Shown one piece after another: positions 1 through 23,241 of a stretch of DNA of 33,499 bases (position 1 is its first letter; every line of letters begins with the position of its first letter). Under the pieces are notes generated by a model. That model ran no database searches. It was not told where the DNA came from and was given only the letters and a program-made list of their open reading frames with translations. Position numbers and translations under genes: made by a program. The stretch covers positions 1 through 33,499 of IMG/VR virus record IMGVR_UViG_3300024518_003365. The stretch is one strand, 5' to 3'. This DNA is from a virus.

Positions 1-127
1 CTGTGAGGAGGCGAGCCACTTCCCGGGATACACCGACAACGTGGTGGCGCGGTGGGACCGACCCGAGGCGCCGACGACAATCATCATGGACGGAGAGGAG
101 GTCGAGGTTTGAGCCTGACGAACGACA
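1..127. repeat. Left copy of 127-bp direct repeat closing the genome unit
   Basis: These 127 bases are identical to 32870-32996, and the first mismatch falls at base 128 (g here, c at 32997). The segment covers the 3' end of the exonuclease gene and the first codons of the SSB-like gene. A repeat starting at base 1 and lasting exactly 127 bases looks like a k-mer overlap from a de Bruijn assembly of a circular or permuted genome (inference). A true tandem gene duplication is the alternative. Confidence 0.9.
2..112 (+). CDS. RecE-like exonuclease, C-terminal fragment cut by window start
   Basis: This open frame enters from the window edge, encodes 36 residues ending GEEVEV, and stops at TGA 110-112. 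It is identical to the C-terminus of the complete gene at 31719-32981, so it is the same gene met again on a circular map rather than a separate gene. It contains no catalytic residues. The stop overlaps the TTG start of the next gene (TTGA), and the coding sequence carries that gene's ribosome site (GGAGAGGAGG). Confidence 0.85.
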   Translation, partial: CEEASHFPGYTDNVVARWDRPEAPTTIIMDGEEVEV

Positions 128-498
128 GTACCTACGACGGGGTCATCGCGGAGGCCACGCTCAACCTCGCCTACCAGAGTGAGCACGCTTTGGATGCGGT
201 CTTCACCGTCGAGATCGAGGGCGTCGGCGGGGCGGTCGACAGGATCAAGTGCAAGCACCACCTGTTCGGCGATAAACTCGAGCAGACGAAGGAGATCCTC
301 GACTCGCTCGACGTGCCGTGGCCCCCGGACCTGCTGGAGATGGAGAAGGCGGACGGCAAGAGCGTTCGTGTGTGGATCAGTGAGTTCAACGGGCGCCAGT
401 TCGGCAAGATCAACCGAGGCGGTGCACGGGCCGACGATCCCGAAGCCATCGAGGCCGCGATCAGAAAGCTGAAGGGCGAAGATGAGCCTCCCTTCTAA
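109..498 (+). CDS. SSB-like single-stranded DNA-binding protein (version A)
   Basis: A 129-residue protein starting at TTG 109, chosen because it overlaps the upstream stop as TTGA and follows a strong GGAGG site; an ATG at 52 would lie inside the exonuclease gene in another frame. It is predicted beta-rich in its first ~100 residues and ends in the acidic tip GEDEPPF. That tip resembles the DDDIPF tip by which bacterial SSB recruits partners, and the gene follows a RecE-like exonuclease. I infer a role in binding single-stranded DNA during recombination or replication. No named family match was possible from sequence alone; a DUF669-type phage protein is the alternative. A diverged homologue lies at 32978-33376. 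Confidence 0.55.
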   Translation: MSLTNDSTYDGVIAEATLNLAYQSEHALDAVFTVEIEGVGGAVDRIKCKHHLFGDKLEQTKEILDSLDVPWPPDLLEMEKADGKSVRVWISEFNGRQFGKINRGGARADDPEAIEAAIRKLKGEDEPPF

Positions 499-739
499 CT
501 GCGCCGGCTGCGGTGCTGACACCACCGAGGGCTTCTCGCTGGACGAGGCGGTCGAGGCGTGGAATCAGGTCGACGATACGTCGAAGGTCTACGGGCTGAA
601 CTGCTGCTGGACGCTGATGGAACTGATGGGAGCCGACCGCGCCTACAAGACCGAGTGTGGACGTGATCTGTACAACTTCTACCCGGTCGCCCACCCCGGC
701 GACTTGCAGCGGGACAAACCGGGGACAGGTAGGGCATAG
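482..739 (+). CDS. Small CxxC protein, possibly Lar-like
   Basis: An 85-residue protein starting at ATG 482, inside the last codons of the SSB-like gene (17-base overlap). It has CAGC near the N-terminus, then EAVEAWNQ, then a CCW and a further Cys. The CxxCG plus EAxEAWN pattern recalls Lar-type restriction-alleviation zinc ribbons, but the usual second CxxC pair is not in the usual place, so the assignment is weak. A nearly identical start is seen in the truncated gene at 33360, which supports it as a real gene. Confidence 0.6.
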   Translation: MSLPSNCAGCGADTTEGFSLDEAVEAWNQVDDTSKVYGLNCCWTLMELMGADRAYKTECGRDLYNFYPVAHPGDLQRDKPGTGRA

Positions 740-772
740 ACAGTGCGCTATTGCTGGACACAAGACGCTCGC

Positions 773-804
773 CTCGCCTGCCGGGTGCTGCCTCGGCGGG
801 TGAG
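773..804 (+). promoter_or_regulatory. 11-bp stem hairpin before a small gene
   Basis: CTCGCCTGCCG (773-783) pairs with CGGCGGGTGAG (794-804) around a 10-base loop, with two G-U wobbles. It sits between the stop at 739 and the ribosome site AAAGGAGAG at about 823. There is no U-tract, so a classical intrinsic terminator is unlikely; an mRNA-stability or attenuation element is possible. The rest of 740-833 shows nothing else recognisable. Confidence 0.5.
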
Positions 805-833
805 TCGAATCTAACAACAACAAAGGAGAGACC

Positions 834-956
834 GTGGCACTACCCGAGAACCTGAAAGTGTTGGCGCAGATCATGGAGAGGGCGGACAAGTTGAACACCA
901 CCGACCTCAACTACCTGATCGACCTGATCCGCGAGAAGATCGACAAGAGAGCCTGA
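834..956 (+). CDS. Small alpha-helical hypothetical protein (40 aa)
   Basis: GTG 834 follows a strong ribosome site (AAAGGAGAG, about 8 bases upstream) and the frame ends at TGA 954-956, overlapping the next ATG as TGATG. The product is short, charged and likely helical, with LNYLIDLIREKID at its C-terminus, and contains no cysteines or membrane segment. I do not recognise a family. The strong ribosome site and coupling to the nuclease gene make it a credible gene. Confidence 0.7.
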   Translation: MALPENLKVLAQIMERADKLNTTDLNYLIDLIREKIDKRA

Positions 957-1249
957 TGAGTCAACACCACGCCTACCCCAAGACCGACGCGAACCACGAC
1001 GAGATCGTCAACGGGCTTCGCGCTCGCGGGCTGGGCGTGGTCTCGCTGGCCTCGCTCGGCGACGGTGCTCCGGACATACTCGTGGGGGTGCCGTGTGGCG
1101 TCACCGGGGACAACGTGCTGATCGAGATCAAGGTGCCGGGGAAGGCGCTGAACGCCGTGCAGGTCAAGTGGCACGAGGAATGGCCGGGGCCGGTCTACAC
1201 CGCCTGGACGCTGAAGCAGGCGCTCAACATCTGCGGGCTGACGCCGTGA
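956..1249 (+). CDS. VRR-NUC-type PD-(D/E)XK nuclease
   Basis: A 97-residue protein with the minimal VRR-NUC nuclease core: GAPD with D40, then LIEIK giving E57 and K59, then Q69 in the following helix. This stand-alone phage form is the usual length for the family, whose members cut branched or flap DNA in a metal-dependent way. It probably processes recombination or packaging intermediates alongside the exonuclease and SSB-like protein upstream. The ATG overlaps the previous stop (TGATG). All key residues are present. The remainder up to 1302 holds only a 15-codon frame and the ribosome site AGGAG for the next gene. Confidence 0.8.
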   Translation: MSQHHAYPKTDANHDEIVNGLRARGLGVVSLASLGDGAPDILVGVPCGVTGDNVLIEIKVPGKALNAVQVKWHEEWPGPVYTAWTLKQALNICGLTP

Positions 1250-1302
1250 GATTCACGGACGGCCCCGATTGGACTCGAGCAGTAATCGGATAGGAGACAA
1301 TC

Positions 1303-1854
1303 ATGCGACCCGTAATCATCATCTTCGCCCTTCTCCTGACCGGCCTCGCCGGGGCGGGGGAACCCGGCACCTGCCGCGACTTCACCGACGCTGCGGGGTT
1401 CCAGCACCGAAAGTGCCGCGCCCACGAGGTAGCAACGCCGCTCTACTGCGTCCTCACCCCCGACCGCACGGGCGAGGTCTGCATCGAAGGAGTCCCACCG
1501 ACCCGCACGTCCCCGTCAGGCTGGCGCGAGCAGAAGCGGAAGGGCGTCTGGGTGTCGGTGCCTGCGGGCTGTACAGAAGTGCAGTGCCACGATCAGGCCG
1601 CTCGTACGTGTGGCATACGGGGCCTATCGCGGTTCCTCTACGACGGGCCGAACTCGCAACTCTGCGGCTTCATGTGCCCCGGAGACACGGCGTGGCGGAA
1701 CATCACGAACTGCGGTGGAGGGGGCGGCAACATCCCCGCGACATGCTGTGGCTATTGTCCGGGAGGTTGCGTCGATGCCGAGACGGGCGTCCCGTCCACG
1801 CTGCCGTGCTGCCCTGCCCCGCCTGACGATGACGATGTAACGAGGCCGTTGTGA
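1303..1854 (+). CDS. Secreted cysteine-rich protein with DDDDVTRPL tail
   Basis: A 183-residue protein with a clear signal peptide (MRPVIIIFALLLTGLAGAG, cleavage likely before EPG). The mature part contains 16 cysteines, including clusters CCGYCPGGC and PCC near the end, consistent with a disulfide-rich extracytoplasmic protein. No phage structural or lysis family is recognisable. It leads an operon of small overlapping genes. Its last residues DDDDVTRPL are shared with the next two proteins, and the DNA encoding them contains the start codon of the next gene (GTGA overlap at 1851-1854). A role at the host envelope, such as superinfection exclusion, is speculation. Confidence 0.8.
   Translation: MRPVIIIFALLLTGLAGAGEPGTCRDFTDAAGFQHRKCRAHEVATPLYCVLTPDRTGEVCIEGVPPTRTSPSGWREQKRKGVWVSVPAGCTEVQCHDQAARTCGIRGLSRFLYDGPNSQLCGFMCPGDTAWRNITNCGGGGGNIPATCCGYCPGGCVDAETGVPSTLPCCPAPPDDDDVTRPL
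1825..1854 (+). repeat. Gene-junction repeat A, copy 1
   Basis: This copy encodes DDDDVTRPL and the stop of the 183-aa gene, and embeds the GTG start of the next gene. The shared core is GACGATGTAACGAGGCC here and GACGACGTGACGAGGCC in copies 2 and 3. The ACGAGG part may act as a weak ribosome site for the downstream start, about 8 bases away. Confidence 0.85.
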
Positions 1855-2138
1855 ACTCACCACGAATCTGGATCGTCCTGTTCCTCGGTCTCGTACTTGG
1901 CTTCTGCTTAGGCTTGTTCTACATGAGTACCCGAGTCGAGGCCGCTGAGTATCGCTACGACAATCACATCCACGTGCAAGCCAACGGGACTTGCAACGAC
2001 GACAACGCACATTGCAGGTGGCCCGATGAGTACATGCTTGAATGGTGCGCTGAACGCATGGTGATGGAGGAGTTGGATGCTAGGTTAAAAGGAGGAGGCC
2101 CCGACCCCGACGATGACGACGTGACGAGGCCATTATGA
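1851..2138 (+). CDS. Membrane-anchored small protein with DDDDVTRPL tail
   Basis: A 95-residue protein starting at GTG 1851, overlapping the previous stop by four bases. Residues ~6-26 (IWIVLFLGLVLGFCLGLFYM) form one membrane segment or uncleaved signal anchor. The rest is hydrophilic, contains three cysteines (TCNDD, HCRW, WCAE) and would face the periplasm. It ends in the same DDDDVTRPL as its neighbours. Function unknown; the export signals shared with the upstream protein suggest that the pair acts in the envelope. Confidence 0.7.
   Translation: MNSPRIWIVLFLGLVLGFCLGLFYMSTRVEAAEYRYDNHIHVQANGTCNDDNAHCRWPDEYMLEWCAERMVMEELDARLKGGGPDPDDDDVTRPL
2109..2138 (+). repeat. Gene-junction repeat A, copy 2
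   Basis: The core GACGACGTGACGAGGCC is followed by the ATGA stop-start overlap at 2135-2138. It encodes the C-terminal DDDDVTRPL of the 95-aa protein. It differs from copy 1 mostly at third codon positions and in the start codon. Confidence 0.85.
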
Positions 2139-2332
2139 AACTCAGCGAACTATCGAACAGGAATGGCACGGTGACTAGATTCCGCGTGTTCATCGGGGAG
2201 GGGCAGAAGTCGATCAGGGCGAACTCCCGAGAGGCGTTGATTACGGCCGTCGAGGATGAACTCTCCGGGGGCCGCGGCTTTTCCGTTGACGTGGACCTTC
2301 CATCCGATGACGACGTGACGAGGCCGCTGTGA
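2135..2332 (+). CDS. Small hypothetical protein with DDDVTRPL tail
   Basis: A 65-residue protein starting at ATG 2135 within the junction repeat. It has no signal peptide or membrane segment and looks like a small alpha/beta cytoplasmic protein (TRFRVFIGEGQKSIRANS). The C-terminus is again DDDVTRPL although the body is unrelated to the two upstream proteins. I do not recognise a family. Confidence 0.65.
   Translation: MKLSELSNRNGTVTRFRVFIGEGQKSIRANSREALITAVEDELSGGRGFSVDVDLPSDDDVTRPL
2305..2332 (+). repeat. Gene-junction repeat A, copy 3
   Basis: GATGACGACGTGACGAGGCC followed by GCTGTGA; the GTG start of the next gene is at 2329-2331. This is the last copy seen; the junctions after it use a different repeat. 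Confidence 0.85.
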
Positions 2333-2559
2333 GTAAAACCATCGGGCAGTTGCGGAGAGAGATCGAGGGCGACCAAGAGAACTCCCCAGAGTGGATCCCG
2401 ATTCATGACGAGGTATCCCTTCGCAGGTACTGCCTCGCCCTCTTGGCGGAGCACGAGGCGGTGGGGCATCACATTGTAGTGTGCTCATGTCCGCAAATCG
2501 CGCTAAGGGGAACGCACGCCGCCGCCGAGAAGGCGCTGGGGGTGGACAGTGGCAAGTAG
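2329..2559 (+). CDS. Small hypothetical protein (76 aa)
   Basis: GTG 2329 overlaps the previous stop (GTGA). The product is 76 residues, helical and charged, with two cysteines (VCSCP) and no export signal. It does not carry the DDDVTRPL tail; instead it ends KALGVDSGK, and the DNA for KALGV recurs at the end of the next gene. Function unknown. Confidence 0.65.
   Translation: MSKTIGQLRREIEGDQENSPEWIPIHDEVSLRRYCLALLAEHEAVGHHIVVCSCPQIALRGTHAAAEKALGVDSGK
2530..2545 (+). repeat. Gene-junction repeat B, copy 1
   Basis: AAGGCGCTGGGGGTGG, 16 bases, recurs exactly at 2738-2753. It encodes ALGV near the end of the 76-aa protein and ends three bases before the next start (GTG 2549). The GGGGGTGG part can serve as ribosome site. 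Confidence 0.8.
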
Positions 2560-2764
2560 ATTCAACGTGCTTACATCCGGCCGGGCCAGCACAGACGGCC
2601 ACGGCCATCGGTTCGTGACGGTCAAAGTATCTATGCCCAAAACCGTTACCCATAACGAGCGCGTCAATCTCGTGGTCCAGTGGAAACCAACAGGCAGAGA
2701 CTACACGACCGACCGGCCCGTGAAGCCAGGAAAGCGAAAGGCGCTGGGGGTGGGGGATGAGTGA
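2549..2764 (+). CDS. Small basic hypothetical protein (71 aa)
   Basis: GTG 2549 lies 11 bases inside the end of the previous gene, directly after repeat B. The product is basic, likely beta-rich (HRFVTVKVSM, NLVVQWKPTG) and ends KALGVGDE. No family recognised. Its 3' end carries the second copy of repeat B, and the ATG of the coiled-coil gene overlaps it at 2757. Confidence 0.6.
   Translation: MASRFNVLTSGRASTDGHGHRFVTVKVSMPKTVTHNERVNLVVQWKPTGRDYTTDRPVKPGKRKALGVGDE
2738..2753 (+). repeat. Gene-junction repeat B, copy 2
   Basis: An exact copy of the 16-base sequence at 2530-2545, again ending three bases before the next start codon (ATG 2757). Confidence 0.8.
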
Positions 2765-3281
2765 CTGCTGCAAGCACTGTCGGCAAGTCATCGAAGAACT
2801 GGAAGCCGAACTCCGCCGCCGGGAGGAGGAGATCGAGGGGCTCGACAAGACGGTCGCTAGGATCATCACGCAGAACATCGACCTGACCAGCCGCGCCGAG
2901 GCCGCCGAGAAGGAGCGGGACGAGTGGAGGGGAATCGCGATCAACGCCCAAGCCAAGGCGAACGTGCTGAGTGAAGAACTAAAGGCGGCACACACAACCG
3001 AAGGCAGCGCGGTTAAGTGCAGCATCGCAGCATACGAGAAACTCGCCGCCGCCGAGGAGCGGGTGGGGGAGTTGGAGGAGAAATATTGCGACTGGTCAGT
3101 CAATGACAGAGATAAGGTCAAGGTCGCAATCGCCGTGTCTCCAAAAGGGTGGGTAGTCAAACGCGATGAAGCCGACATAGAGCACAGGTGGTCGCGTTAC
3201 AACGAAGACGGCCAGCGGATTTTGTATGCTGTCCGCCGCGCCCTGGAGCGGGCCGACGAGGGAGGGGATGATGGGGAGTGA
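2757..3281 (+). CDS. Coiled-coil protein with N-terminal CCxxC
   Basis: A 174-residue protein starting at ATG 2757 (8-base overlap upstream). The N-terminus MSDCCKHCRQ is followed by a strongly charged heptad-like coiled coil over residues ~10-110 (EELEAELRRREEEIEGL). A compact C-terminal part (KGWVVKRDEADIEHRW) is followed by an acidic tail. The architecture suggests an oligomeric or scaffold-like accessory protein; no enzyme motif is visible. Function unknown. Confidence 0.7.
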   Translation: MSDCCKHCRQVIEELEAELRRREEEIEGLDKTVARIITQNIDLTSRAEAAEKERDEWRGIAINAQAKANVLSEELKAAHTTEGSAVKCSIAAYEKLAAAEERVGELEEKYCDWSVNDRDKVKVAIAVSPKGWVVKRDEADIEHRWSRYNEDGQRILYAVRRALERADEGGDDGE

Positions 3282-3372
3282 CTGGACCTTGGAAGGCGTA
3301 GAGCCTCTCACTTCCCCGCCTTCTGCCACGGCCACCCCCGCTTCCAAATCAGAGACGGGAGATGAGAAGTGA
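3271..3372 (+). CDS. Very small protein (33 aa) bridging two genes
   Basis: ATG 3271 lies inside the end of the coiled-coil gene, and the frame stops at TGA 3370-3372, overlapping the GTG of the next gene as GTGA. The product is rich in Ser, Thr and Pro and ends SETGDEK. The exact coupling at both ends, without which an 87-base gap would break the operon, is the main support. No known family. Confidence 0.5.
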   Translation: MGSDWTLEGVEPLTSPPSATATPASKSETGDEK

Positions 3373-3692
3373 GCGAGATTCGATGTCCATGCGGAGACCT
3401 GAGCCACGAGTGGAACAACCATCACGACGAGCCGTATGCGTGGGATACCTGCGTCGAGATTGGCCGTCTCAAAGAAGACAACAGCAGGCTAAGAGAGGAA
3501 CTTAGCAAGGTGGGCAGGCATTTCCCTACCTGTATGCTCTTTATGGGGAGGGACTGTGACTGCGGCCTCCACGAGACTCTCACCGCTTCCGCCCCCGACG
3601 CCACAGATACAGCGCAATCAGACCCACCCCGCAAAAGAACACCCAATACGGATGAGGCGCAAAGCCCGCCAGCCACCCGCCGAACCTCATAA
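3369..3692 (+). CDS. Cys/His-rich hypothetical protein, 3' end antisense to a late gene
   Basis: A 107-residue protein from GTG 3369. The first ~70 residues look genuine: CPCGDLSHEWNNH suggests metal binding, and a short charged helix is followed by CMLFMGRDCDCG. The last ~35 residues (Pro, Thr and Ser rich) lie on the opposite strand of the - strand gene at 3580-3735 and look like an antisense read of it. This is the final gene of the rightward arm. Confidence 0.55.
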   Translation: MSEIRCPCGDLSHEWNNHHDEPYAWDTCVEIGRLKEDNSRLREELSKVGRHFPTCMLFMGRDCDCGLHETLTASAPDATDTAQSDPPRKRTPNTDEAQSPPATRRTS

Positions 3693-3735
3693 GCGAGTCG
3701 ACCGCCGCGGGGAACCATTCACTCGGCTGGTCCAT
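3580..3735 (-). CDS. Small single-span membrane protein, last gene of the late operon
   Basis: Reading leftward from ATG 3735 (TGATG overlap with the Cys-rich gene) gives 51 residues: an amphipathic N-terminus, one membrane segment (YWVFFCGVGLIALYLW) and a basic tail RRGRKR. Its position after the lysozyme and holin-like genes suggests a lysis accessory (holin, antiholin or spanin-like), but there is no lipobox or diagnostic motif. It overlaps the + strand gene tail-to-tail by 113 bases. Confidence 0.6.
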   Translation of the reverse strand: MDQPSEWFPAAVDSLMRFGGWLAGFAPHPYWVFFCGVGLIALYLWRRGRKR

Positions 3736-3875
3736 CACGCCTCCGGGTGGTGGTCCACGCCGGGGTCACAGCCGCAGGCGCCGCAGCACGCGCACTGAGG
3801 GCAGATCCCTTTGATGGCATTGTGACAGACCCGGCAGACCCCGGCCTTCACGCAGGCTTCGATGCTGGCGCTCAC
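3735..3875 (-). CDS. Cysteine-rich mini-protein, probable zinc binding
   Basis: From GTG 3875 (GTGA overlap with the upstream stop), 46 residues hold nine cysteines: CVKAGVCRVCHNAIKG, CPQCACCGACGC, then a His pair. The CxxC spacing suggests a zinc ribbon or double knuckle. It is coupled on both sides within the lysis region. No family name can be assigned. Strict end-to-end coupling and the ordered CxxC pattern argue against chance. Confidence 0.65.
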   Translation of the reverse strand: MSASIEACVKAGVCRVCHNAIKGICPQCACCGACGCDPGVDHHPEA

Positions 3876-4156
3876 AGCCCGCGAATCTTCTTCTTCAGCT
3901 CCCGGCCGGTCTTCCTGATGAGATCGTGGGCGGCGTGGATCGCCAGCAGCTCGGCGTGCGTGAATCGCACATCGTAGGTCTCCACGTCCGGGGCGGCCTC
4001 GAGCGCGTCGATCTTCATCCGCGCCGACTTGTACGCCATCAACTGACCGTCCACGTCGTCGAGGATCTTCGCGATCTTCGCCGCGCGACCCCCGCGCCCG
4101 AACAGCGCCGCGATCAGGTTGATGATTCCGACTGCCTCGCCGATGTTGATCCTCAT
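3872..4156 (-). CDS. Hypothetical protein in the lysis region (94 aa)
   Basis: ATG 4156 overlaps the holin-like gene stop (TGATG). The N-terminus is hydrophobic (AVGIINLIAALFG), and the remainder is helical and charged, ending RELKKKIRGL. It may associate with the membrane. Comparable small genes follow holins in many siphophages, but I see no motif that fixes a role. Confidence 0.65.
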   Translation of the reverse strand: MRINIGEAVGIINLIAALFGRGGRAAKIAKILDDVDGQLMAYKSARMKIDALEAAPDVETYDVRFTHAELLAIHAAHDLIRKTGRELKKKIRGL

Positions 4157-4476
4157 CAGTCCACCACCTTCCCGCCTTTAACGCGCTTCAGAAGTTTCTC
4201 GGGCGTCTGCCCCACGTCGTGCCCCTTCGCCGCCAGGCCGTACGCCAGCAGCCCGTAGACCACCACGAGGGCATAGGTCCACGGCGTAGCGTTCGCCACG
4301 TCGGCCCCGTCCAGCTTCACCATGCCCATCTGCCAGAAGATCATCGTGGCCGCCTGGCCGAGGATCACGGCGATGAGATCCTGGGACACGCTCGGCAGTG
4401 CCCGCTTCAGCCCCTGGGTGGCGATCCACACGAGGCCCATAAGGGACACCAGGCTCATCAGAGTATTTTCGATCAT
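4156..4476 (-). CDS. Holin-like membrane protein
   Basis: A 106-residue protein whose start ATG 4476 follows GGGGAGG, better than an in-frame ATG at 4521. Hydrophobic segments lie at about residues 5-20, 33-50 and 68-85, with a basic C-terminal tail (KLLKRVKGGK). Size, multi-span topology and position just after the lysozyme fit a class I-type holin that opens the inner membrane. The family cannot be named from sequence alone. Confidence 0.65.
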   Translation of the reverse strand: MIENTLMSLVSLMGLVWIATQGLKRALPSVSQDLIAVILGQAATMIFWQMGMVKLDGADVANATPWTYALVVVYGLLAYGLAAKGHDVGQTPEKLLKRVKGGKVVD

Positions 4477-4478
4477 GT

Positions 4479-4835
4479 CTACCTCCCCGCCCTGTCGAGG
4501 CGGTCCTGAATGATCGCGCATTCGCGCTCCAGGTCGGACAGCCTACCGGCCACGTCGCCGTGGGGCTTCTGGAGATGGCCGTCCTTCCACGCAGCGAACT
4601 CCGCCCCGGTGACGAAGATCGAGTCCTTCTGGAGAATGGTCTGGTGGATCTCGGGGTTGCTGTTGTGGGCTTCGATGGCGGCCTTCACCGCCTCGAATTT
4701 CAGATCGACGATGTAGATCATAATCGAGACCATGACCCCGCAGACGGTCGCAACGATTGTCGTTATCGTCGCGTACTCTTTGAATCCAAATCGCACCACG
4801 CCACCACCGTTCCCGTCGCTCTCGACCTTTGCCAT
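4479..4835 (-). CDS. Membrane-anchored coiled-coil protein (lysis accessory)
   Basis: The start ATG 4835 is preferred over 4913 because GGAAGG lies upstream. The 118-residue product has one membrane segment (ATITTIVATVCGVMVSIMIYIVDL, written here as two parts ATITTIVATVCG and VMVSIMIYIV) at about 21-44 and then a helical soluble domain ending in RLSDLERECAIIQDRLDRAGR-like heptads. This resembles phage inner-membrane proteins paired with holins. It ends two bases before the holin-like start. A spanin role is possible but unproven. Confidence 0.65.
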   Translation of the reverse strand: MAKVESDGNGGGVVRFGFKEYATITTIVATVCGVMVSIMIYIVDLKFEAVKAAIEAHNSNPEIHQTILQKDSIFVTGAEFAAWKDGHLQKPHGDVAGRLSDLERECAIIQDRLDRAGR

Positions 4836-4884
4836 CGCTTCGACCTTCCTGGTCCAGTTACGCCCGGCTTTGTGCCGTGTGCGG

Positions 4885-5322
4885 TTAAGTGTGCGTCCTC
4901 GCGAGATCACCATCTCGCATCTGCCTGGACAACCTATCGGCGCGCTGCCCGACCTGCAGCGCCCACTTGGAATCCAGCATCTCGACCGAGGCGGCCGTGA
5001 AGTCTCCGCGCTCGAGCGCTGCCATGAAACGCACGAAGCCCGCGAGCCTCGGCCAGCCGAGATTGAAGATCATCTCCACGATGACTTCCTGCCGCGCGTG
5101 GTCCAGCAGCGGCCAGCACGGGACGCGCATCGCCGCCTCGCCCACGGCCCTCGAGATGTCGTTGTCGAGCAGGAGCTCGGCCTCTTCCTCGCTGATGCCC
5201 ACGTCGGTCAGGTTGCGGCCGAAGCCTATCGTGGTCTTCCCGACCTGGTCCTCGTAGGGCAGCAGGCGCTTCCCCTCGTGGCGCTTCAACGACTTCCGAA
5301 GCCGGTTGATCTTCACCGCCAC
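4885..5322 (-). CDS. Endolysin, T4-type lysozyme (GH24)
   Basis: A 145-residue muramidase that hydrolyses the MurNAc-GlcNAc bond of peptidoglycan at the end of infection. The catalytic triad is visible with T4-lysozyme spacing: E16 in RHEGK, D25 in PYEDQ and T31 in GKTTIGFG. There is no signal peptide or signal anchor, so release should depend on a holin, matching the membrane proteins just downstream. The start is GTG 5322 or GTG 5316; the latter gives a GTGA overlap with the upstream stop. Length is close to the family norm and all key residues are intact. Confidence 0.93.
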   Translation of the reverse strand: MAVKINRLRKSLKRHEGKRLLPYEDQVGKTTIGFGRNLTDVGISEEEAELLLDNDISRAVGEAAMRVPCWPLLDHARQEVIVEMIFNLGWPRLAGFVRFMAALERGDFTAASVEMLDSKWALQVGQRADRLSRQMRDGDLARTHT

Positions 5323-5926: not shown

Positions 5927-8317
5927 CTAATTGTTCTCCAGGGCCGTCCAGGTGTCGGTCGCCGTGCACAAGCACAGGGAGTTGTCTGCGGTCGTGGTGC
6001 AGTTCGTGTCGACCGTTTCGTCGGTGTCGATGAATATCTCGTAGGGCGTGCAGGTCGCTGGCGGGAAGGCCCCGCCAGCGCTCGGCGGCTTCACGGTGCC
6101 GTCCTTCAGCACTACGCTGTCGATCGTCACGCCAGCGGCGCTCGTGTACTCCGCGACGGTGTCGGTGTAGAGCGTCCCGGAGATGTAGGCCGAGGCCCAT
6201 GCAAGCGCCGCGGTGCCGAGGGCGTACGTGTTCGTGACCGTGGGCAGGAAATCAAACGCCGAGCGAAGACTGGCCATAATCGGAGAAGAGGAGTTGTCCG
6301 TAAATTGCAGCCCCCACGTACCGTCTGCGAACCCTGAGTATGACAGCATCCCTTGATTCGTCGGCACGCTATTCCAGGTGAGGGCAATCGCGCCCTCTTC
6401 AAACGTGGAATTCTCGACGCCAAACACAAGCAGACGCGGGGCCTTAACCCCGTTAGAAATGGTATTGAAGTCAAAGCGCGACTCCTCGTCGCCTGCGGTT
6501 GTGTCGTTCATAAAGATCGAGAACGATGCATCGATCGCTGCTGTCGTGGTCGTCGCGTCAAACGCGAAGATCGGTATGGCGTTTGCGATACGCACGTTCG
6601 GAGAGAACAGTAGCGCATCCTCGCCCTCATCCCAGGTGACCGTCTTGTTCGAGTCGAGATCAATCGTCAGCGCCGTCACGTCCTGCGCGGTGCCGTCGCC
6701 TACCTGGAGGCCGTCGTCGGCCTCGACGGTGCCGAGGACCCGGAGGATCTTCCGCGTGGACGCGCCCGAGTTGTTGTCGTCGAGTTGCAGGACGTTCGTC
6801 GTCGCCGGGGCCAGCGAGATATCGAAGGTCGCATCTTCGTCGTAGTCCCATCTATGAGCCCCGGATACCGGCAAACGGAAGGCGTATGAAGTGCCGCCAT
6901 CGGTCGATGACTGGAGAACGATATCGGACGACGCATCGCCGAATCGGTTCATCGCCCCGCTGGCTGCGCCCATCTTCAGGAAGTCGGCCTCGTCGTACCC
7001 GAACACAACAGGCCCGGCAAAGTGAGTATCGGCGACGGACTCCTCGAATCCTGTATCGAAGCTGACAGGGTCGGTCTGTGCCGTGCCGCGTTGGCTATTC
7101 GAGAATACAGATATATCCGTGATCGTCCCGCCGTCGCACGTTCCACTCTCGAAGCCATCGCAGCAGGCGCAAGGCACCCCCGCTGCCGTGCAGTTCGAGT
7201 TATCGAGACAGGTGTCGCCGATCGACAGGAACCGCCCAGTCGTGGCGCCCACCGCTGTATTCCCCGAGAAGGTGACGCCTGTAATCGCCCCGTCCAGGGC
7301 ATTCAATCTGAAGCCCGGGTGTTCCGCTGTCGCGTCCTGCGAGCACGAATCTACGACGTTGCCGGTCACTACCGTATCGGTAGTTCCTGCGGTCAGGTAG
7401 ATCCCGGACACCCCGGCGTCCGTAACGAGGTTGTTCGCAACGACGCTGTTCGTGCAGGTGCAGGTTATCCCCTCGGACTCGGCCCATGAGATCCCAACGT
7501 TTCCTGTCGTGTCTACCTCGTTTCCTATGATCTGGATGTTGTCCGGGACCACCCCGCCGCTCGACGTGACACGTATCCCGTTCCGGTTGGACGATACGAC
7601 CAGGTTGCTCTCGATGCTGATGCTGTTCGTTGTGGGCGAACCGCCCCCGAATACGGTGATCCCGCCGCGAGCCGTCTGCGCCGAGTCGTCCACCGGATCA
7701 TTGATGACGTTGCTCTTGATTACGCCCTCGGACGCGCCATTCGAGACCGTGATGCCGCCATGCTCGGGGCCGTCGATGAAGTTGCGCTCGATCCAGAACC
7801 GGGCGCAGTTGTTGACCGAGATTCCCTCTTTGCCGGCCAGCGTAATCGTGACGTGGTTGACGCGGAAGTCTGTCGCCCCGGAGCAGAAGACCCCGTGACC
7901 CTCGTTGGTGTTCCCGCTGTTGCCAACGATGGACATCCCGTACAAGGTGAAGCCGCTACCTGTGACGTTGAACCCGGCGCTCGCACTGTCCGCCGTGGCG
8001 TTGAAGATCGTCACGCCCTGCCCGTCGCCGGTCAGCAGCATGTTGTTGTTGGAGATGTCCAACCGTCCGAGGTATTCCCCCGCCGGGAAATGGACGTGCG
8101 AATCAGATAGCGCCTCTATCGCAGCCTCGAACCCCGTCCAGGGGTCGCCGTTCGTACCCGCGCCGCCGGTCGCCAGTTTGTGGGCATAGGCGACTTCGTT
8201 GATGTACTTCGACTGAAGATCGGACCATTCCGAATCGCCGGGGACCTGCCCGCGAACGACAAGGCCCCATCCGATACCAAGGACGAAGGCGAGCAGCGTA
8301 ATCAGGAGTTTCTTCAT
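5927..8317 (-). CDS. Parallel beta-helix protein with signal peptide (tailspike or depolymerase-like)
   Basis: A 796-residue protein whose start ATG 8317 overlaps the upstream stop (ATGA); the longer start at 8350 would lie inside that gene. The N-terminus MKKLLITLLAFVLGIGWG reads as a signal peptide. Residues ~45-400 show pectate-lyase-like right-handed beta-helix coils with repeated IxxNxVxxxxxxGI units. A Cys-rich insertion (CTAAGVPCACCDG) follows, then long beta-rich repeats and a C-terminal Cys-containing cap. The position after the tail-tip genes suggests host polysaccharide recognition or degradation. No catalytic site could be identified. Confidence 0.7.
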   Translation of the reverse strand: MKKLLITLLAFVLGIGWGLVVRGQVPGDSEWSDLQSKYINEVAYAHKLATGGAGTNGDPWTGFEAAIEALSDSHVHFPAGEYLGRLDISNNNMLLTGDGQGVTIFNATADSASAGFNVTGSGFTLYGMSIVGNSGNTNEGHGVFCSGATDFRVNHVTITLAGKEGISVNNCARFWIERNFIDGPEHGGITVSNGASEGVIKSNVINDPVDDSAQTARGGITVFGGGSPTTNSISIESNLVVSSNRNGIRVTSSGGVVPDNIQIIGNEVDTTGNVGISWAESEGITCTCTNSVVANNLVTDAGVSGIYLTAGTTDTVVTGNVVDSCSQDATAEHPGFRLNALDGAITGVTFSGNTAVGATTGRFLSIGDTCLDNSNCTAAGVPCACCDGFESGTCDGGTITDISVFSNSQRGTAQTDPVSFDTGFEESVADTHFAGPVVFGYDEADFLKMGAASGAMNRFGDASSDIVLQSSTDGGTSYAFRLPVSGAHRWDYDEDATFDISLAPATTNVLQLDDNNSGASTRKILRVLGTVEADDGLQVGDGTAQDVTALTIDLDSNKTVTWDEGEDALLFSPNVRIANAIPIFAFDATTTTAAIDASFSIFMNDTTAGDEESRFDFNTISNGVKAPRLLVFGVENSTFEEGAIALTWNSVPTNQGMLSYSGFADGTWGLQFTDNSSSPIMASLRSAFDFLPTVTNTYALGTAALAWASAYISGTLYTDTVAEYTSAAGVTIDSVVLKDGTVKPPSAGGAFPPATCTPYEIFIDTDETVDTNCTTTADNSLCLCTATDTWTALENN

Positions 8318-8607
8318 GACGATGGCCCCTGTGCAATCGGCCCGACCCACTGGGGTGTCCCCCCGGAATCATTCAGTAGCATGTAGACCTTCTCGGGGTT
8401 CCCGCTGTTGTCTGTCCATTTCGAGTACGTCCCGTCCGTGGTCGGCGCGCTGCCCTGCTTGATCTCTTTCGACGCCGACGCGACCCCGCTACCGATGAGG
8501 TCCGAGACGGCCTGGGCCGCCCAGTCCTTCCCGCCGATGTCCCTCTTCGCCAGCAGAATCCGCATGGCGTTGACGAGCTGATTCACTTCCGCGACGGTGA
8601 GCGCCAT
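8314..8607 (-). CDS. Small tail-region hypothetical protein (97 aa)
   Basis: ATG 8607 follows the previous stop with no gap. The first half is helical (ALTVAEVNQLVNAMRILLAKRD), and the second half is polar and aromatic (KWTDNSGNPEKVYMLLND). It ends in a four-base overlap with the beta-helix gene. Position suggests a tail-fibre connector or chaperone. No family recognised. Confidence 0.6.
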   Translation of the reverse strand: MALTVAEVNQLVNAMRILLAKRDIGGKDWAAQAVSDLIGSGVASASKEIKQGSAPTTDGTYSKWTDNSGNPEKVYMLLNDSGGTPQWVGPIAQGPSS

Positions 8608-9102
8608 TCACCACCTCGCCACGAGACTCGACCCGTCCGGGTCCATGTACGGGATCTCGTCTATCAGATCGACGCAGCGGAGCGTCAGATCGAACGCTGC
8701 GCCCACGACGGTCTTCCCCGAGATGCTGTTGGGGCCGCCGTGGGATCCCATCACGACGCGTCGATAGGTCTGCTCGTTGTCCAGCGACAGGAAAACCCCG
8801 GCGCCGAAGTCGTTCTCGCGCCCCATCCTCGGGTCCGCGAGCCAATTCAGGATCTTGGAGTAGTTCTGGTGGTCGCTCATCGTGAAGACGAGCATGCGCA
8901 GCGTGACCACGGGCCGGAAGCCGAAGGAGATCGGCCTGGCGGCGCGGTTGATGTCGTCCGCCCCGTCGATCTCGGGGAGGTAACTCACGTCGTGGGATTG
9001 CGGCCCCGACAGGTCGGAGAAGACCACCAGCAGGTCCAGCGTCTCGGTCGCGCCGTCGTACGGGATCATCTTTATCCACGGATGCCACTTGTAGCCTGCC
9101 AT
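8608..9102 (-). CDS. Putative minor tail protein (164 aa)
   Basis: ATG 9102 overlaps the tail-hub stop. The product is beta-rich with a mixed sequence (KWHPWIKMIPYDGATETLDLL, shown in part) and no export signal or enzyme motif. It lies between the tail hub and the fibre genes, where siphophages encode distal tail or baseplate parts. Assignment rests on gene order only. Confidence 0.55.
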   Translation of the reverse strand: MAGYKWHPWIKMIPYDGATETLDLLVVFSDLSGPQSHDVSYLPEIDGADDINRAARPISFGFRPVVTLRMLVFTMSDHQNYSKILNWLADPRMGRENDFGAGVFLSLDNEQTYRRVVMGSHGGPNSISGKTVVGAAFDLTLRCVDLIDEIPYMDPDGSSLVARW

Positions 9103-11279
9103 CAGAGAGCCTCCGCGAATTCGATCAGCCGCAATTCCTGCCGCTCATCGCCGAGCGCGGACTCCGTGCTGACCACGAGGTATGTGACGTCGTCGAGAAT
9201 CACCTGATCGAGCGGGCGGATCACACGCAGCCCTTCGCGGATCTCCACCTGCTCCTCGCTGCGGACCCGGCCCAGCAGATCGTAGTAGATGTTCGCGATG
9301 GCCAGCGCGAGCGACTCGTTGAAGATCAGCGAGCCCGAGATGGACAGCCGGCGGGCGCTGTCCCCGGCCGCCCCAGCCGTCTCATCGATCTCGTTCCCGT
9401 CCGGGTCTTCTCCGGTGATCCTGACGCTGCCCCTGTACCAGTCGGAGACGGGCCGACTCTTCCGCTCGAGCGGCGTGTCCAGTGTGTCGGGCACCTGCTG
9501 GAGCGGATCGCCCAGCCGCGATTTGATGAACCCGACGCGGTACTGATCCACGGTGAACATCGCAGCCGAAGCCATCGCCAGTTCGGACATGGCCGACGCG
9601 CAGGACTGCCCCTGAAAGTCGGCATAGTCCACGACGCCGTCGAAGTAGGGCGACAGCACGAAGTAGTCGTTGCCCGCGGCGCACCCGACCATGATGTCGT
9701 GAGTGGCCTCGGAGAAGACCGAGAGGAAGTTCCCGAAGTTGCTTCGCAGGCTGCTGACCCGGTAGTCCGCGACCTGGCCCCAGCGTTCCACGCCCTTCGC
9801 GTTTGTATCGATGGTCCATACACGCGCGCGAGTCTCCGACCCGGTATGGTAGAGCGCGACGATGTGGTCGCCAAAGTGCTTCAGCGTCCACATAATCAGG
9901 CCCGCGGGAACCGTGATCGTGTTGATGGTTTCGATGGCCGTCTTCGTTGCCGTGGCAAGGCTGTAGAACGTTAGCGTCGTGCCCTCGTAGTCGAGAAACG
10001 CCATGAAACCCAGCGAACGGATGCACCGCAACGAACCTGCGTCCCCGATGTCCGATCCCAGAGAGGCCCCTCCCGCGTCGTAAATCTTGAGGTGCGCCGC
10101 GCCCGCGTCGCGCTTGTAGCTGATCCAAACGAAGTCGTTAACGTCGTCATATTCCAGCTTGGCGATGTCGTACCCGCTGAGGCCGAGGGCGCTCGTCCAG
10201 GTGTCCACCTCAACCAGTTGCACCCCGTCAGCCCGGAGGTAGAGTTGCGTGCGGTCGGTCCCCGGTACGGGGGTATCCGCGGTGATGATCTCTTCAAGAT
10301 CGTAGTAAATCCCGTTCGTGTGATCCCACGCGATCAGTCCTTCGTCCTTGGCGCTCGGCGCAGCGAGGACCGTCGGCTCCGTGGTGAGATACGGTCGCCA
10401 GTCCCCGTTCCCGTTGTTCTTCGCGGATCCGTCCACCCAGCCGTCGCGCGGGTTGTCCGCAACCTGCTCGTTTCCGCTCAGGTAGGTGATGACGATCTGC
10501 CCGAGCTGCTCGACGATGGACCGGATCGCCAGCGATGGGTCAGGGATGCCGTCCACCGACATCTTCGTCTCGACCGGATACCCGGCCAGCCGTTCGGTGA
10601 TGCTCACCTCATAGTCCGGGATGCTGGCCTCGGTGAAGATCAGATCCGCGAGGAAGGCGATGGACTTGTCACGGTAATACGGCGTCTCCAGCGTGAACGC
10701 CGCCGCGGCGAAGGTGTTCGTGAAGTCGTCTTCGAGCGTGATCTGTGTGGCCGAGTCGATAGATTGGATCACCCCCTCTTCGTTGTTGTTCGAGTCCACG
10801 AGCGAGACCGTGTCCCCGGTCTGGAGCATAGAGGTGTCGGTCAGGCTGCTCATCACAGCGGCCCCTGACGTGATCGAGGCGGTCTGCGTGCCTTCGTCCC
10901 GCTTGATGCTGTCCGCGTCGCCACGCTCCAGCAGCTTCGTGTGGGAGAAGACCTGGACAGACGCCGTCTTATCCTTCCGGTCGTACTTCAGCGACCACGG
11001 GAGGTCGATCAGCCCGGCCCAGACGAGATCCCACTTCGGTCGGCGCTTCCCGGTCTCCCGGTAGACCTTGACCGTGTACTCGTCGTTCGGCTCGGCCCCG
11101 AGGAAGAACTTCTCCACCTCGCCGTCCTGGTCCGCGAGGTCGAAGTCCATATCGCCGTGGGTGAAGTCGAGGACGTCTTCCTCGGTGCCCTCGGACAAGC
11201 GGCTGACGTCTTCGATCCTGCCGGTGACGTCGAGCTCGACGCCGTTGGGGTCGGTGAAGATGACGGAGAGCGTCTTCAT
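9102..11279 (-). CDS. Tail tip/hub protein with probable beta-propeller insertion
   Basis: A 725-residue protein directly after the tape measure, where siphophages encode the distal tail or hub proteins. The N-terminus (LSVIFTDPNGVELDVTGRIE) and C-terminus (EGLRVIRPLDQVILDDVTYLV) resemble baseplate hub folds. Residues ~300-520 contain repeated short beta-strand blocks with aromatic and Asp residues (DDVNDFVWISYKRD, GDHIVALYHTGSETRARVW), suggesting a WD or kelch-like propeller. That insertion could bind a receptor (inference). Overlaps the tape measure gene by four bases. Confidence 0.6.
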   Translation of the reverse strand: MKTLSVIFTDPNGVELDVTGRIEDVSRLSEGTEEDVLDFTHGDMDFDLADQDGEVEKFFLGAEPNDEYTVKVYRETGKRRPKWDLVWAGLIDLPWSLKYDRKDKTASVQVFSHTKLLERGDADSIKRDEGTQTASITSGAAVMSSLTDTSMLQTGDTVSLVDSNNNEEGVIQSIDSATQITLEDDFTNTFAAAAFTLETPYYRDKSIAFLADLIFTEASIPDYEVSITERLAGYPVETKMSVDGIPDPSLAIRSIVEQLGQIVITYLSGNEQVADNPRDGWVDGSAKNNGNGDWRPYLTTEPTVLAAPSAKDEGLIAWDHTNGIYYDLEEIITADTPVPGTDRTQLYLRADGVQLVEVDTWTSALGLSGYDIAKLEYDDVNDFVWISYKRDAGAAHLKIYDAGGASLGSDIGDAGSLRCIRSLGFMAFLDYEGTTLTFYSLATATKTAIETINTITVPAGLIMWTLKHFGDHIVALYHTGSETRARVWTIDTNAKGVERWGQVADYRVSSLRSNFGNFLSVFSEATHDIMVGCAAGNDYFVLSPYFDGVVDYADFQGQSCASAMSELAMASAAMFTVDQYRVGFIKSRLGDPLQQVPDTLDTPLERKSRPVSDWYRGSVRITGEDPDGNEIDETAGAAGDSARRLSISGSLIFNESLALAIANIYYDLLGRVRSEEQVEIREGLRVIRPLDQVILDDVTYLVVSTESALGDERQELRLIEFAEAL

Positions 11280-13348
11280 CGCTGCCGCCGGGCTTGATCC
11301 TGCCTTCTCGCCCTGTCGGCGGCGCGTACGAATCGACGCATGGACGAATCGCTGATGATGTTCGGGCCCTGGATGATGATCGGGGCCCCAGCGGCCTGCG
11401 TGGTGCCTTCCTGCTGCTGGTCTTCAGTGACCACACCGTTCGCGGGGCCGCTGGTTGACTGCTGCGTCGGGATTGATCCGCCGAGGGATGGCGCACTGGC
11501 CGAGCCGATGTTCGTCTGGGAGATCGTGGCGAGTTGCACGGCACCGGCTGCGGCGATGGCGGCGACCTGATACCAGTTCCCGAGATGCGCGGTGATCTGT
11601 CGTGCGATGTTGATGACGGCGATGGCGTAGGCTGCGGCCTTGGACTCACCGAAGACCGCCTGCCCGAGTTGGACCGACGCCGACGCGAGGGCGAACTTGG
11701 AATCAAGCTCCGCTGCGTCTGCGGCCTTCTGGAATTCCAGCCTCCCGGCTGCGATGTCCTTCTCCGCGTTGGAGATGATCTGCGCCCACTTAATCGCGAT
11801 CTTCCACTTGCCGATCCATGTCCCTTCGTACTCGGACAGTTCCTTGTCCCGCTGGGCCTTCAGGCTCTTTATTTCAAGTTCGAGCGTGTCCTGCCCGGCG
11901 ATGTCCCTGGCATCCATCAGCGCGTCAAGCAGACCCAGCGTAGCCTCGAACTCCGCTTCGGCGATGACCCTGTTTCGTTCCGCTGCATCCTCGATCAACT
12001 GCGCGTTGTGATCCGCTCGCAGCTTCTGCTCGGCCAGGCGGAACGCCTCGTTTAGCTCAGCCTCGCCGCTCTTGATTTCCTCCGCGCTCTTGAGCGCCCG
12101 TTCCTTGAGCAGCGCAAGGATCTCCAGTTCCTTCGCGAGCCGTTCCCGCGAGCCCTCTTCGGTCAGCGCCAGCTCGGCGCGTAGTTGGGATTCCTTGGCC
12201 TTGAGGGCGAAGTCGGCCTTCTTCGCTTCCTCTTCTGCGGCCTTGGCGAGTTCCTTCGCCAGTCGCTCCTCGGCCTTCTTAGCCGAGCGGGCCGCTGCTG
12301 CATCGCGCAACTTCTGGCGCGCGTCGAGTTGCTGCTGGACAGTGAGCGTTACGGCCTTCTCGGCTTCCCCGGAGATCCGCTTCTGCTCCGCTGCGCCATC
12401 GGCGAAGATGTCGCCAATCAGCGCCAACTCTTTCTCGGCCGTCTCACGGAGCGTCGTGAACGTGCCGCCTGCGCCGCCAGTCCTGATCGCATCCCACGCC
12501 GCAGTGATGACGCGCCCCAGACTAGTGAAGCCCTGAATCCCTGCGGACACAAACGTACCGATCCCGGCCCACGCCTTCTGGAGTACAATGATGAAACCAG
12601 CGAAGAAATCGGACAATCGCCCAATGGCAGGCGCCAGCGCCTCCCCCACGCTGATCCTGACCTTGTTCGTGCTCGCGGCCATCGAATCGAGCGAGCCGCG
12701 CGCGTCGTCGGCTGCGTCCCCGTAGTCCAGGAACTTGTCGAGCGCCTGGTCCAGCACCTCGGCCTGCTGCTCTGCCGAGTCCTTCGTCTGGTCGAACGCC
12801 AGGCCGAGCGACTTCGCGGGTTCGATCACCTCGCCCTGGAGGATGCCGCCGAGCAGGTTCGCCGCTGTGGCGACGTCCTTGTACTGCTTTTCCTGCGCTC
12901 CGACTGCCGCGTTGAGAAGGATCGTCGCCTGCTCTACGTCGCCGGTAAGCCCGAGGAACTTGTTAAAGATCGGCGTGGTGTCCTGCCGCAGGATGCCGGT
13001 CTGTTCCTCGATTGCCGCGGTCATGGCCTTCACGCGGCCGACCGTGTCGTCTACGTCCAGCCCGAGGTTCCTGGCCTCGCTCCCTGTCGATGATAGTTGC
13101 CGCTCCCAATCCGCGAACGCCGTGATGGACTGCTGCACGAACCGCGCGATAACAGCCGCGCCGAGGAATCGGGTGAGGGTACTGCCGAGCTTGCCCGCAC
13201 TTTTCTCTGCCCGGTCGAGGGACTTCGCCGCCTTCGCGGCGTCCTTGTCCATCTCTTTCAGGAGCTTGTCGGCCTTCTTTATCGCGGCGCCGCTATCCTT
13301 GAGCAGGATGTCGATCTGGGCGCGGATTCTGAGGTCTTCGCCTGCCAT
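11276..13348 (-). CDS. Tape measure protein
   Basis: A 690-residue, strongly helical protein that sets tail length and is ejected with the DNA. It has N-terminal coiled coil (KKADKLLKEMDKDAAKAAKSL-like), hydrophobic stretches in the middle (ALAPAIGRLSDFFAGFIIVL), a second long coiled coil at ~330-480 and a hydrophobic Ala-rich C-terminal part. By the usual ~0.15 nm per residue this predicts a tail near 100 nm. It follows the tail chaperone (TAATG overlap), as expected. No peptidase or lytic transglycosylase motif was seen. Confidence 0.88.
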   Translation of the reverse strand: MAGEDLRIRAQIDILLKDSGAAIKKADKLLKEMDKDAAKAAKSLDRAEKSAGKLGSTLTRFLGAAVIARFVQQSITAFADWERQLSSTGSEARNLGLDVDDTVGRVKAMTAAIEEQTGILRQDTTPIFNKFLGLTGDVEQATILLNAAVGAQEKQYKDVATAANLLGGILQGEVIEPAKSLGLAFDQTKDSAEQQAEVLDQALDKFLDYGDAADDARGSLDSMAASTNKVRISVGEALAPAIGRLSDFFAGFIIVLQKAWAGIGTFVSAGIQGFTSLGRVITAAWDAIRTGGAGGTFTTLRETAEKELALIGDIFADGAAEQKRISGEAEKAVTLTVQQQLDARQKLRDAAAARSAKKAEERLAKELAKAAEEEAKKADFALKAKESQLRAELALTEEGSRERLAKELEILALLKERALKSAEEIKSGEAELNEAFRLAEQKLRADHNAQLIEDAAERNRVIAEAEFEATLGLLDALMDARDIAGQDTLELEIKSLKAQRDKELSEYEGTWIGKWKIAIKWAQIISNAEKDIAAGRLEFQKAADAAELDSKFALASASVQLGQAVFGESKAAAYAIAVINIARQITAHLGNWYQVAAIAAAGAVQLATISQTNIGSASAPSLGGSIPTQQSTSGPANGVVTEDQQQEGTTQAAGAPIIIQGPNIISDSSMRRFVRAADRARRQDQARRQR

Positions 13349-18218: not shown

Positions 18219-19649
18219 TTACGGGTAGGTCAGGAAGCCGAGGTAGGTCCACGCCGCCGGGACGGTGACGCGGCCACCGAAGCGCCCGACGAGGCGAGCG
18301 TCCATCTGGAAGTTCGCCCAGCCCACCTGATCGGTCACGTCCCACGACATGCCCATCCGGGTTCCCGCCGTGAAGGTCGACAGCGACCCGAAGAGGATCT
18401 CCGTGTTCGTCCCGTCGTCGAGGGTCGAGGCCCCGCCGAGTGCTGCGGAGACGATGATCGGACGGCCAAGGATCGTCCCGGCCGGAGCACCCTGCGTCGC
18501 GGTGGCGCCGAAGTGAACGATGGGCATCCCGTTGGAGTCCACCAGGCCGAGCGCGAGCGCGTAGCCCGCCGGGGACATGATCCATACGGCGTCATCGCGG
18601 GCGCTCTGTTCGCTCGCTCCGGTGAACGTCTGGACCAGCAGCGACCACGAAAGCGACCGACCGGCGGCCGTGCCCGAGGTGAGCGCGTTGATCCCGGTGC
18701 CGTTGCGAACCCCGAGGAGCTCGGGAAGCGTGCCGTCGCCGAGGACCACCTGCTTGTCGAGCTCGCGCGCCATCTTCTCGGAGAAGACACGCAGGAGCCA
18801 CGCCAGCAGTCCGACGCTGGAGTCCTGCACCACCTCAACGGACATCTTCGCCCGGCCGTACAGCTTGTCCGCCGTGATGTCCACCTGCGCCCAGGTCGGG
18901 TCCTGCTGAGTCAGCGCCGCGGCCTCGATGGCCCACGCCACGGTCAGCGCGGTGTCCTCGCTGGGGATGCTGTGCGTCTTCGTCTGCATCGGCAGCTGAC
19001 GACACAGCGGCCAGAGTTTGCCCGCATCGCCCATCAGCCGAGCTACGTCCGCCTCGACCATCGTGGGAACGAGATTGCCGCCCGTCCCGGCGACATCCTC
19101 GGCGATGTCCGCCTTGGTCTGCCACTCCGACGCGGCCTTGTCCTGGAGCGCCTTGAACGCCTTTGCGGTGTGCTCGGCGTGCTGGCCGACATTGGCCATG
19201 ATCTCGAACTTGCCGGGCACCTGGATCATGGTGGAACCCTTCCACCACTCGTACATTGCGGCGTAGTTGACCGGCTCTTTCGCGTTCTTGGCCTGCTCGG
19301 GGAGCGAGTTGCAGAGCATCTCCACCTGGCGCATGCTCTTCTTCGTCTCGGGCGAAAGGACTTCCTTCAGCCCGTCGTCGTTGTACTCGACGTTGACGAG
19401 TTTCCCGAGCACGGTGGAGCCCTTCGCGAGCCTGTCGATCCGCTCGATCATGGACTCCACGGTCTTGTTGGTCTTCGCGGCGAGGTCTTCGATTCCTCGC
19501 TCCTGTTTCTTGTCCAGTTCGTCGACCTTTTCGGTAACGCGCTTCTCGCTGGCCGTCACGCTCTCGGCGATCTTCTGGACCCCCTCGACGATCGGCGCCA
19601 GCTCTGCGGTGGATTTCACCTCCGCGGCTGCCTTTTCTGCATCGGTCAT
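18219..19649 (-). CDS. Major capsid protein, HK97 fold with delta domain
   Basis: A 476-residue protein. Residues 1-~80 are a charged coiled coil (SEKRVTEKVDELDKKQERG), the delta or scaffolding domain normally removed by the prohead protease encoded just upstream. The rest matches the HK97 capsid pattern, including the N-arm, a central WAIEAAALTQQDPTW segment, MSVEVVQDSS, and a C-terminal LVGRFGGRVTVPAAWTYLGF. It assembles the icosahedral head. Start ATG 19649 overlaps the protease stop (ATGA). Confidence 0.92.
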   Translation of the reverse strand: MTDAEKAAAEVKSTAELAPIVEGVQKIAESVTASEKRVTEKVDELDKKQERGIEDLAAKTNKTVESMIERIDRLAKGSTVLGKLVNVEYNDDGLKEVLSPETKKSMRQVEMLCNSLPEQAKNAKEPVNYAAMYEWWKGSTMIQVPGKFEIMANVGQHAEHTAKAFKALQDKAASEWQTKADIAEDVAGTGGNLVPTMVEADVARLMGDAGKLWPLCRQLPMQTKTHSIPSEDTALTVAWAIEAAALTQQDPTWAQVDITADKLYGRAKMSVEVVQDSSVGLLAWLLRVFSEKMARELDKQVVLGDGTLPELLGVRNGTGINALTSGTAAGRSLSWSLLVQTFTGASEQSARDDAVWIMSPAGYALALGLVDSNGMPIVHFGATATQGAPAGTILGRPIIVSAALGGASTLDDGTNTEILFGSLSTFTAGTRMGMSWDVTDQVGWANFQMDARLVGRFGGRVTVPAAWTYLGFLTYP

Positions 19650-22662: not shown

Positions 22663-22665
22663 CGT

Positions 22666-23241
22666 TTACCCCGCTTGACTCGCCAGTACGTCCGCGACTT
22701 CCGCCGCAGACGCGATGTGACCCTCGGGGCGGTACTCTGTGCCGCCGAATTCGGGCTTGGATTGCCTGTAGTTGTAGCGATAGAGGATCTTGTCGAGCGT
22801 CTTCACCGTCGGGCCCTGCGCCCGGAGCCACTTGCGGAATGCGCGATCCTCGCTCTGCCACCAGTGCGGGAAGGCGAACCGGCGGGCGAGGTCGGTGCGC
22901 ACGCAGCACAGCGGCCGGAAGTCACAGGACGGCCTGCCGAGCCTCAGCGCGCCCCAATCCACGTCGAACATGACCACGTCCGTGTCGCCGATGGCCTCGA
23001 GCAGCGTATCGACGTAGTCCTCGGAAACGTTGTCATCGTCCCCGACGCCCGACGTGTACTCCCCGCTGGCCATCTTGTAGAGCCAATTCATCTTCTCGCC
23101 GATGGTCATCTGGCCGTTGTCCGCGAGCGCGATCACTTCGACGGGCTTGCCGTCGGCCTGGCGGCACAGATCGGGAAGGATCGTGGTCATACCCTGTCGG
23201 GCGATCAGGGCCGGGCAGATGATGGTCAACTTCTTAGCCAT
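22666..23241 (-). CDS. GT2-like glycosyltransferase
   Basis: A 191-residue protein with the compact GT-A layout: IICPALIARQGMTTILPDL at the N-terminus, the DDD metal site at 68-70 within GVGDDDN, and an ED pair at 131-132 in QSEDRAFRKWL. Ends with a basic aromatic segment (ILYRYNYRQSKPEF). It is the last member of the sugar cassette between terminase and portal. Start ATG 23241 overlaps the previous stop by 8 bases. Confidence 0.75.
   Translation of the reverse strand: MAKKLTIICPALIARQGMTTILPDLCRQADGKPVEVIALADNGQMTIGEKMNWLYKMASGEYTSGVGDDDNVSEDYVDTLLEAIGDTDVVMFDVDWGALRLGRPSCDFRPLCCVRTDLARRFAFPHWWQSEDRAFRKWLRAQGPTVKTLDKILYRYNYRQSKPEFGGTEYRPEGHIASAAEVADVLASQAG

Follow-up and report, generated by a model that had tools for sequence, protein, structure and literature searches.

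The DNA which we have analysed, called the window below, is the IMG/VR record IMGVR_UViG_3300024518_003365. It has 33,499 bases with 63% G+C and belongs to an uncultured tailed phage, as judged by its portal and terminase genes. Four small genes, defined from their open reading frames and translations, are chained at positions 1303–2559, and a fifth gene follows them. The features of this region are:

1303–1854, plus strand: gene 1, 183 aa, with a predicted signal peptide (by eye) and a Cys-rich body
1822–1855, plus strand: junction repeat copy 1, with the tail codons, GAGG and a GTGA stop/start overlap
1851–2138, plus strand: gene 2, 95 aa, with a single N-terminal hydrophobic (membrane) stretch (by eye)
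2106–2139, plus strand: junction repeat copy 2, with an ATGA overlap, 85% identical to copy 1
2135–2332, plus strand: gene 3, 65 aa, without membrane stretch or signal peptide (by eye)
2300–2333, plus strand: junction repeat copy 3, with a GTGA overlap, 79% identical to copy 1
2329–2559, plus strand: gene 4, 76 aa, without the DDDVTRPL tail
2530–2545, plus strand: first copy of the second junction repeat, AAGGCGCTGGGGGTGG; the start at 2549 is 19 nt downstream
2549–2764, plus strand: gene 5, 71 aa, with the C-terminus KALGVGDE
2738–2753, plus strand: second copy of the same repeat, AAGGCGCTGGGGGTGG; the start at 2757 is 19 nt downstream

The proteins of genes 1, 2 and 3 end in PPDDDDVTRPL, DPDDDDVTRPL and LPSDDDVTRPL. 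Their common end is encoded by a direct repeat, about 34 nt long and found in three copies at three consecutive junctions, always in the same register. Each copy encodes DDDVTRPL and contains the stop codon, an overlapping RTGA start and a GAGG Shine-Dalgarno core, which ends 5 nt ahead of the start codon in every case. Thus the GTG start of gene 2 overlaps the stop of gene 1, the ATG start of gene 3 overlaps the stop of gene 2 and the GTG start of gene 4 overlaps the stop of gene 3. The likeness of the three gene ends, in nucleotides and in peptide, runs through the stop codon. Pairwise BLASTP found no similarity between the bodies of the three proteins beyond the tail. The first-pass annotation had described three consecutive proteins with different bodies and one C-terminal end, encoded by a repeat which also holds the stop, the next start and a possible ribosome site. 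This anatomy is confirmed in all its parts, and so is the view that the bodies are unrelated. The genes are thus not the product of simple tandem duplication.

The repeat is longer than expected from base composition and neighbour frequencies: copies 2 and 3 have an exact run of 21 nt in common, while the longest exact repeat in 300 dinucleotide shuffles of positions 1–3900 was at most 15 nt. A survey of junctions gave a similar picture: 21–22 of the 25 nt before the stop match in the three junction pairs, against at most 18 of 25 in any other nearby pair. A strong SD-like sequence, AAAGGAGGAGG, is found within gene 2 at 2088–2099, just upstream of the tail repeat and about 36 nt before the next start; it may be what is left of a former start site. 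None of genes 1–4 has an accepted Pfam or PHROGs match or belongs to a recognisable family. A Nudix match of gene 1 was weak and under Pfam's cut-off, and it was disregarded.

The first-pass annotation did not include the second repeat, AAGGCGCTGGGGGTGG, which gives gene 4 the end KALGVDSGK and gene 5 the end KALGVGDE. Two different repeats, at three and two junctions, thus cover five consecutive junctions. Apart from a repeat between the ends of the contig, described below, only two other exact repeats of at least 15 nt are found on the plus strand, with their copies far apart.

We searched for the tail and for relatives of the genes in several collections. The degenerate pattern of tail plus stop, GAYGAYGTNACNMGNCCNYTRTGA, is absent from 2.9 million viral contigs. 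The eight-residue tail, searched with a relaxed stop, is likewise absent from about 85,000 species, each represented by a single genome. The repeat core, made degenerate, has 21 matches in viral contigs, no more than a rough chance estimate, and nearly all of them lie in other coding contexts or frames. Only one, in locus L016, reads DDVTRPV with an ATGA overlap; it is probably due to chance and was rejected. Seeded searches, which reach close relatives only, gave no relatives of genes 1–3 in phages, of genes 1, 3 and 4 in viral contigs or of gene 2 in species genomes. Distant DNA searches found nothing in phages with positions 1–5000 and nothing in plasmids with positions 1290–2360. The tail is also missing from phages with related terminases, and the gene 3 protein, a query without a positive control, had no match among these terminase relatives. 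The terminase search itself returned one identical contig, which spans only positions 18587–26493, and a next best match with 55% identity. The identical contig is L036 of IMG/VR (7,907 bases), 100% identical to this part of the window.

A comparable organization recurs in other viruses. We scanned 163 de-duplicated viral loci (2.2 Mb) and scored all junction pairs up to 5 kb apart for an ungapped common block anchored at the start codon; the genes in this survey were called mechanically as open reading frames and were not curated. A score of at least 15 was reached by 23 of 58,632 nearby junction pairs, compared with 1 among 171,919 control pairs, formed in the same contigs at displaced positions; for a score of at least 13 the counts were 39 and 7. 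Junction pairs from different contigs reached 13 in only 5 of about 119,000 cases, so that a common ribosome site is not a sufficient explanation by itself. At a score of at least 15 the same architecture is found in about 8 of the 162 other loci, each with its own sequence. The shared ends are PGREKEG in L174, ARAAIA[KQ]AEGG in L200, LRGGE in three genes of L166, AVVG.E in three genes of L146 and RGEA in L031; L149, L134 and L116 are likewise cases. L053 (EEVGA) is a further case from the first pass of the scan. L116 and L053 are phages with terminases related to that of the window. In one pair of L149 the likeness extends into the next gene: a partial duplication is visible there.

Some of these loci deserve a comment. 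Three junctions with a common tail-encoding repeat are present in L166 at 11085–12391 (LRGGE), in L146 at 416–1512 (AVVG.E) and in L174 at 10558–11417 (PG..KE). In several such loci the copies stand at distances from the start codon which differ by exactly 3 nt, so that the frame is kept. In L116 the upstream gene has two possible open reading frames, and the longer one (129 aa, ..REEAGDE) reads one copy in another frame; this suggests, without proof, that the copied unit there is DNA rather than peptide. Two loci were left out of the cases: L169, which involves other frames and is doubtful, and L143, where the duplicated gene end is longer. In the latter (8100–9664) two consecutive genes have in common a longer near-identical 3' end and the start of the next gene, MNPKGETM; the first of them is a methylase related to positions 30675–31346 of the window.

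According to the first-pass annotation, no element of this kind had been described. Here it has to be corrected, since there are precedents in the cluster I mycobacteriophages Island3 and Brujita, in lambdoid boundary sequences and in the nin region of lambda: its interpretation keeps the anatomy and the unrelated bodies and loses the absence of any described element. The closest precedent is the pair of neighbours gp67 and gp68 of Island3, which have their last 18 residues in common through a 60-bp repeat of the 3' end (Pope et al. 2011, PMC3029335). Otherwise gp68 has no homologues; Brujita lacks gene 68 and has a single copy, a recombinant of both (PMC3029335, Fig. 5C). Pope et al. see in this repeat a likeness to boundary sequences, short and conserved, which had been proposed in other phages (PMC3029335). 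The deposited sequences confirm the tails RYQLAHVR[ED]VAGRK[RS]RRR in Island3, the stop within ATGA and the single copy in Brujita. As in the window, the genes are neighbours with unrelated bodies, and their C-terminal residues are common at the DNA and protein level. The differences are that Island3 has two copies of about 60 bp, unrelated in sequence to those of the window, and a close relative which demonstrates gene presence and absence; in the window there are three copies, which at about 34 nt are shorter, a second repeat and a divergence which is only synonymous.

Boundary sequences of lambdoid phages and the interlinked gene chain of the lambda/P22 nin region go back to Kroger & Hobom 1982 and Clark et al. 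2001, here as they are cited in PMC8022706, PMC3233612 and PMC2327257. In the nin regions of lambda, P22 and HK97 the junctions repeat a purine-rich block with GCNGCATGA behind it, which gives several unrelated proteins the common end ..AA. The window has the same layout of consecutive small genes, with overlapping stop and start and the SD within the end of the upstream gene. The nin junctions are a shorter form, with only about 8–14 nt in common as compared with about 34 nt, and genes 1–4 have no nin homology by accepted Pfam or PHROGs matches. We conclude that the window holds an unusually clear example, with three copies and a second set, of a known, little-catalogued type of phage gene-junction boundary repeat.

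The unit found in the window is probably a copied gene-junction sequence, a boundary sequence in the sense just described. It carries, in fixed register, the last 8–10 codons of the upstream gene, a weak SD core (GAGG) and the RTGA overlap, which is predicted to couple the translation of the next gene. An overlap of stop and start, in many cases preceded by an SD within the upstream gene, is an established layout for translational coupling (PMC6728339), and coupling is predicted for the window junctions from their sequence. With the register identical in every copy, crossing over between one copy and another would remove or add exactly one gene, leaving the upstream tail and stop intact and the downstream gene still coupled. 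The extra copies may have arisen by recombination-mediated gene gain, either duplication or insertion at a homologous boundary. The common tail would then be mainly a by-product of the copied DNA and not its reason: the RTGA overlap in the repeat fixes the upstream frame, so that copying the DNA necessarily copies the tail. This reading is favoured by the three in-register copies, the unrelated bodies, the second repeat at the two junctions that follow, the reappearance of the layout in other phages under different sequences, the gene presence and absence in Island3/Brujita and a candidate recombination gene:

31617–32981, plus strand: ExoVIII/RecE-like ORF (phrog_412, E=6.7e-29; PF12684)

This ORF has a PDDEXK domain and lies in the early operon; it is a candidate recombination exonuclease, with its true start probably further in, and it perhaps helped the exchange. 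RecET can recombine homologies of 5–13 bp at low frequency (PMC2327257). Several points count against a copied boundary sequence. An annealing partner (RecT, Red-beta or Erf) was not identified in the phage. For RecA-type recombination, mismatched repeats of 21–34 nt are poor substrates. Neither the tail nor the genes had a relative in our searches, so that there is no pair of genomes with and without one of the genes, and the synonymous-only divergence of the tail is not predicted for a pure by-product of DNA. By analogy with Island3 and Brujita, recombination at a repeat of this kind could plausibly add or remove genes, as the first-pass annotation had suggested.

The 3' end of the ExoVIII-like gene is also part of the repeat between the contig ends, positions 1–618 and 32870–33499, which are 78% identical over the whole overlap. 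It includes 120 identical nt, which comprise this gene end and the next start; they are followed by a clearly diverged gene of 127 aa and by another gene which is close again. The contig ends may correspond either to a circular genome with two strain variants or to a duplication in tandem that follows a copied gene end.

The rival explanation which survives best is that the tail is a functional C-terminal tag, as the first-pass annotation had also proposed; we consider it unlikely. In this case P-x-DDDVTRPL would have been selected for stability, localisation or one binding partner and used by three proteins. What remains in support of that proposal is the divergence of the last eight codons: there are five variable sites among the three copies and all five are synonymous, which has P about 0.001–0.003 under random placement, in a post hoc test with five sites only. 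This hints at a constraint at the peptide level. A proline also precedes the tail in the three copies, with a third base different in each of them. Against a tag, the tail is matched nowhere else in the viral contigs and species genomes searched, and a single partner is unlikely for two proteins which look exported or membrane-bound and one which looks cytosolic. In the other phages each shared tail has its own sequence, and some of the changes between copies are nonsynonymous: by codon position there are 11 changes in the third, 8 in the first and 3 in the second, and several alter the residue, so that a general tag function is unsupported.

The repeat could also be a shared translational control element, which is improbable: it would act in cis where ribosomes bind genes 2–4 and place them under common regulation, with the tail incidental. 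It would resemble the SAS of cluster K mycobacteriophages, a 13-bp motif found over half the genome and accompanied in about half of the cases by inverted repeats (PMC3203893). SAS and ESAS have in common with the window repeat their small size, their SD core and their place, close before the starts of unrelated genes in the non-structural region; the repeat of the window ends at the start codon, in the same position as SAS (PMC3203893). They differ from it by not being defined by common ends of the upstream proteins. In the window the SAS motif GGGATAGGAGCCC, which in SAS lies just before starts, has no match with up to 2 mismatches allowed. Near the three junctions we found no inverted repeat of at least 8 nt, and hence none like the 17-bp imperfect inverted repeats of ESAS. 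There was no unusual RNA structure either. Moreover, the divergence tracks the codon positions of the upstream gene and no fixed motif is spared, and only three local copies are present.

A combination of the two ideas of exchange and tag appears still less probable: homology-driven arrays of gene cassettes, each with a body and an in-frame connector of tail, stop and start, in which the tail has been selected here as a portable C-terminal tag that places unrelated accessory proteins under one partner. Finally, plain tandem duplication with later divergence, or a chance likeness forced by the SD and the stop/start overlap, is very improbable: the genes do adjoin and these signals constrain about 8 nt, but the tails are 79–85% identical over 34 nt while the bodies share nothing, which speaks against simple duplication of one gene, and neither the junctions from different contigs nor the shuffles described above support chance.

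The interest of a copied boundary sequence lies in a long-standing question on phage gene mosaics: how their joints come to fall exactly at gene ends. In the published view conserved boundary sequences are seldom visible, and illegitimate recombination followed by selection is mostly responsible (PMC3233612, PMC3029335). A class of joint that can be seen is formed by repeats within a genome which keep the frame, the stop, the start and the ribosome site. Their recurrence in unrelated sequences, at about 8 of 162 other loci, is a more useful result than the window itself, since it makes the boundary-sequence model testable at scale. Annotators should also be aware that a C-terminal tail common to adjacent phage proteins is not necessarily a sign of common function.
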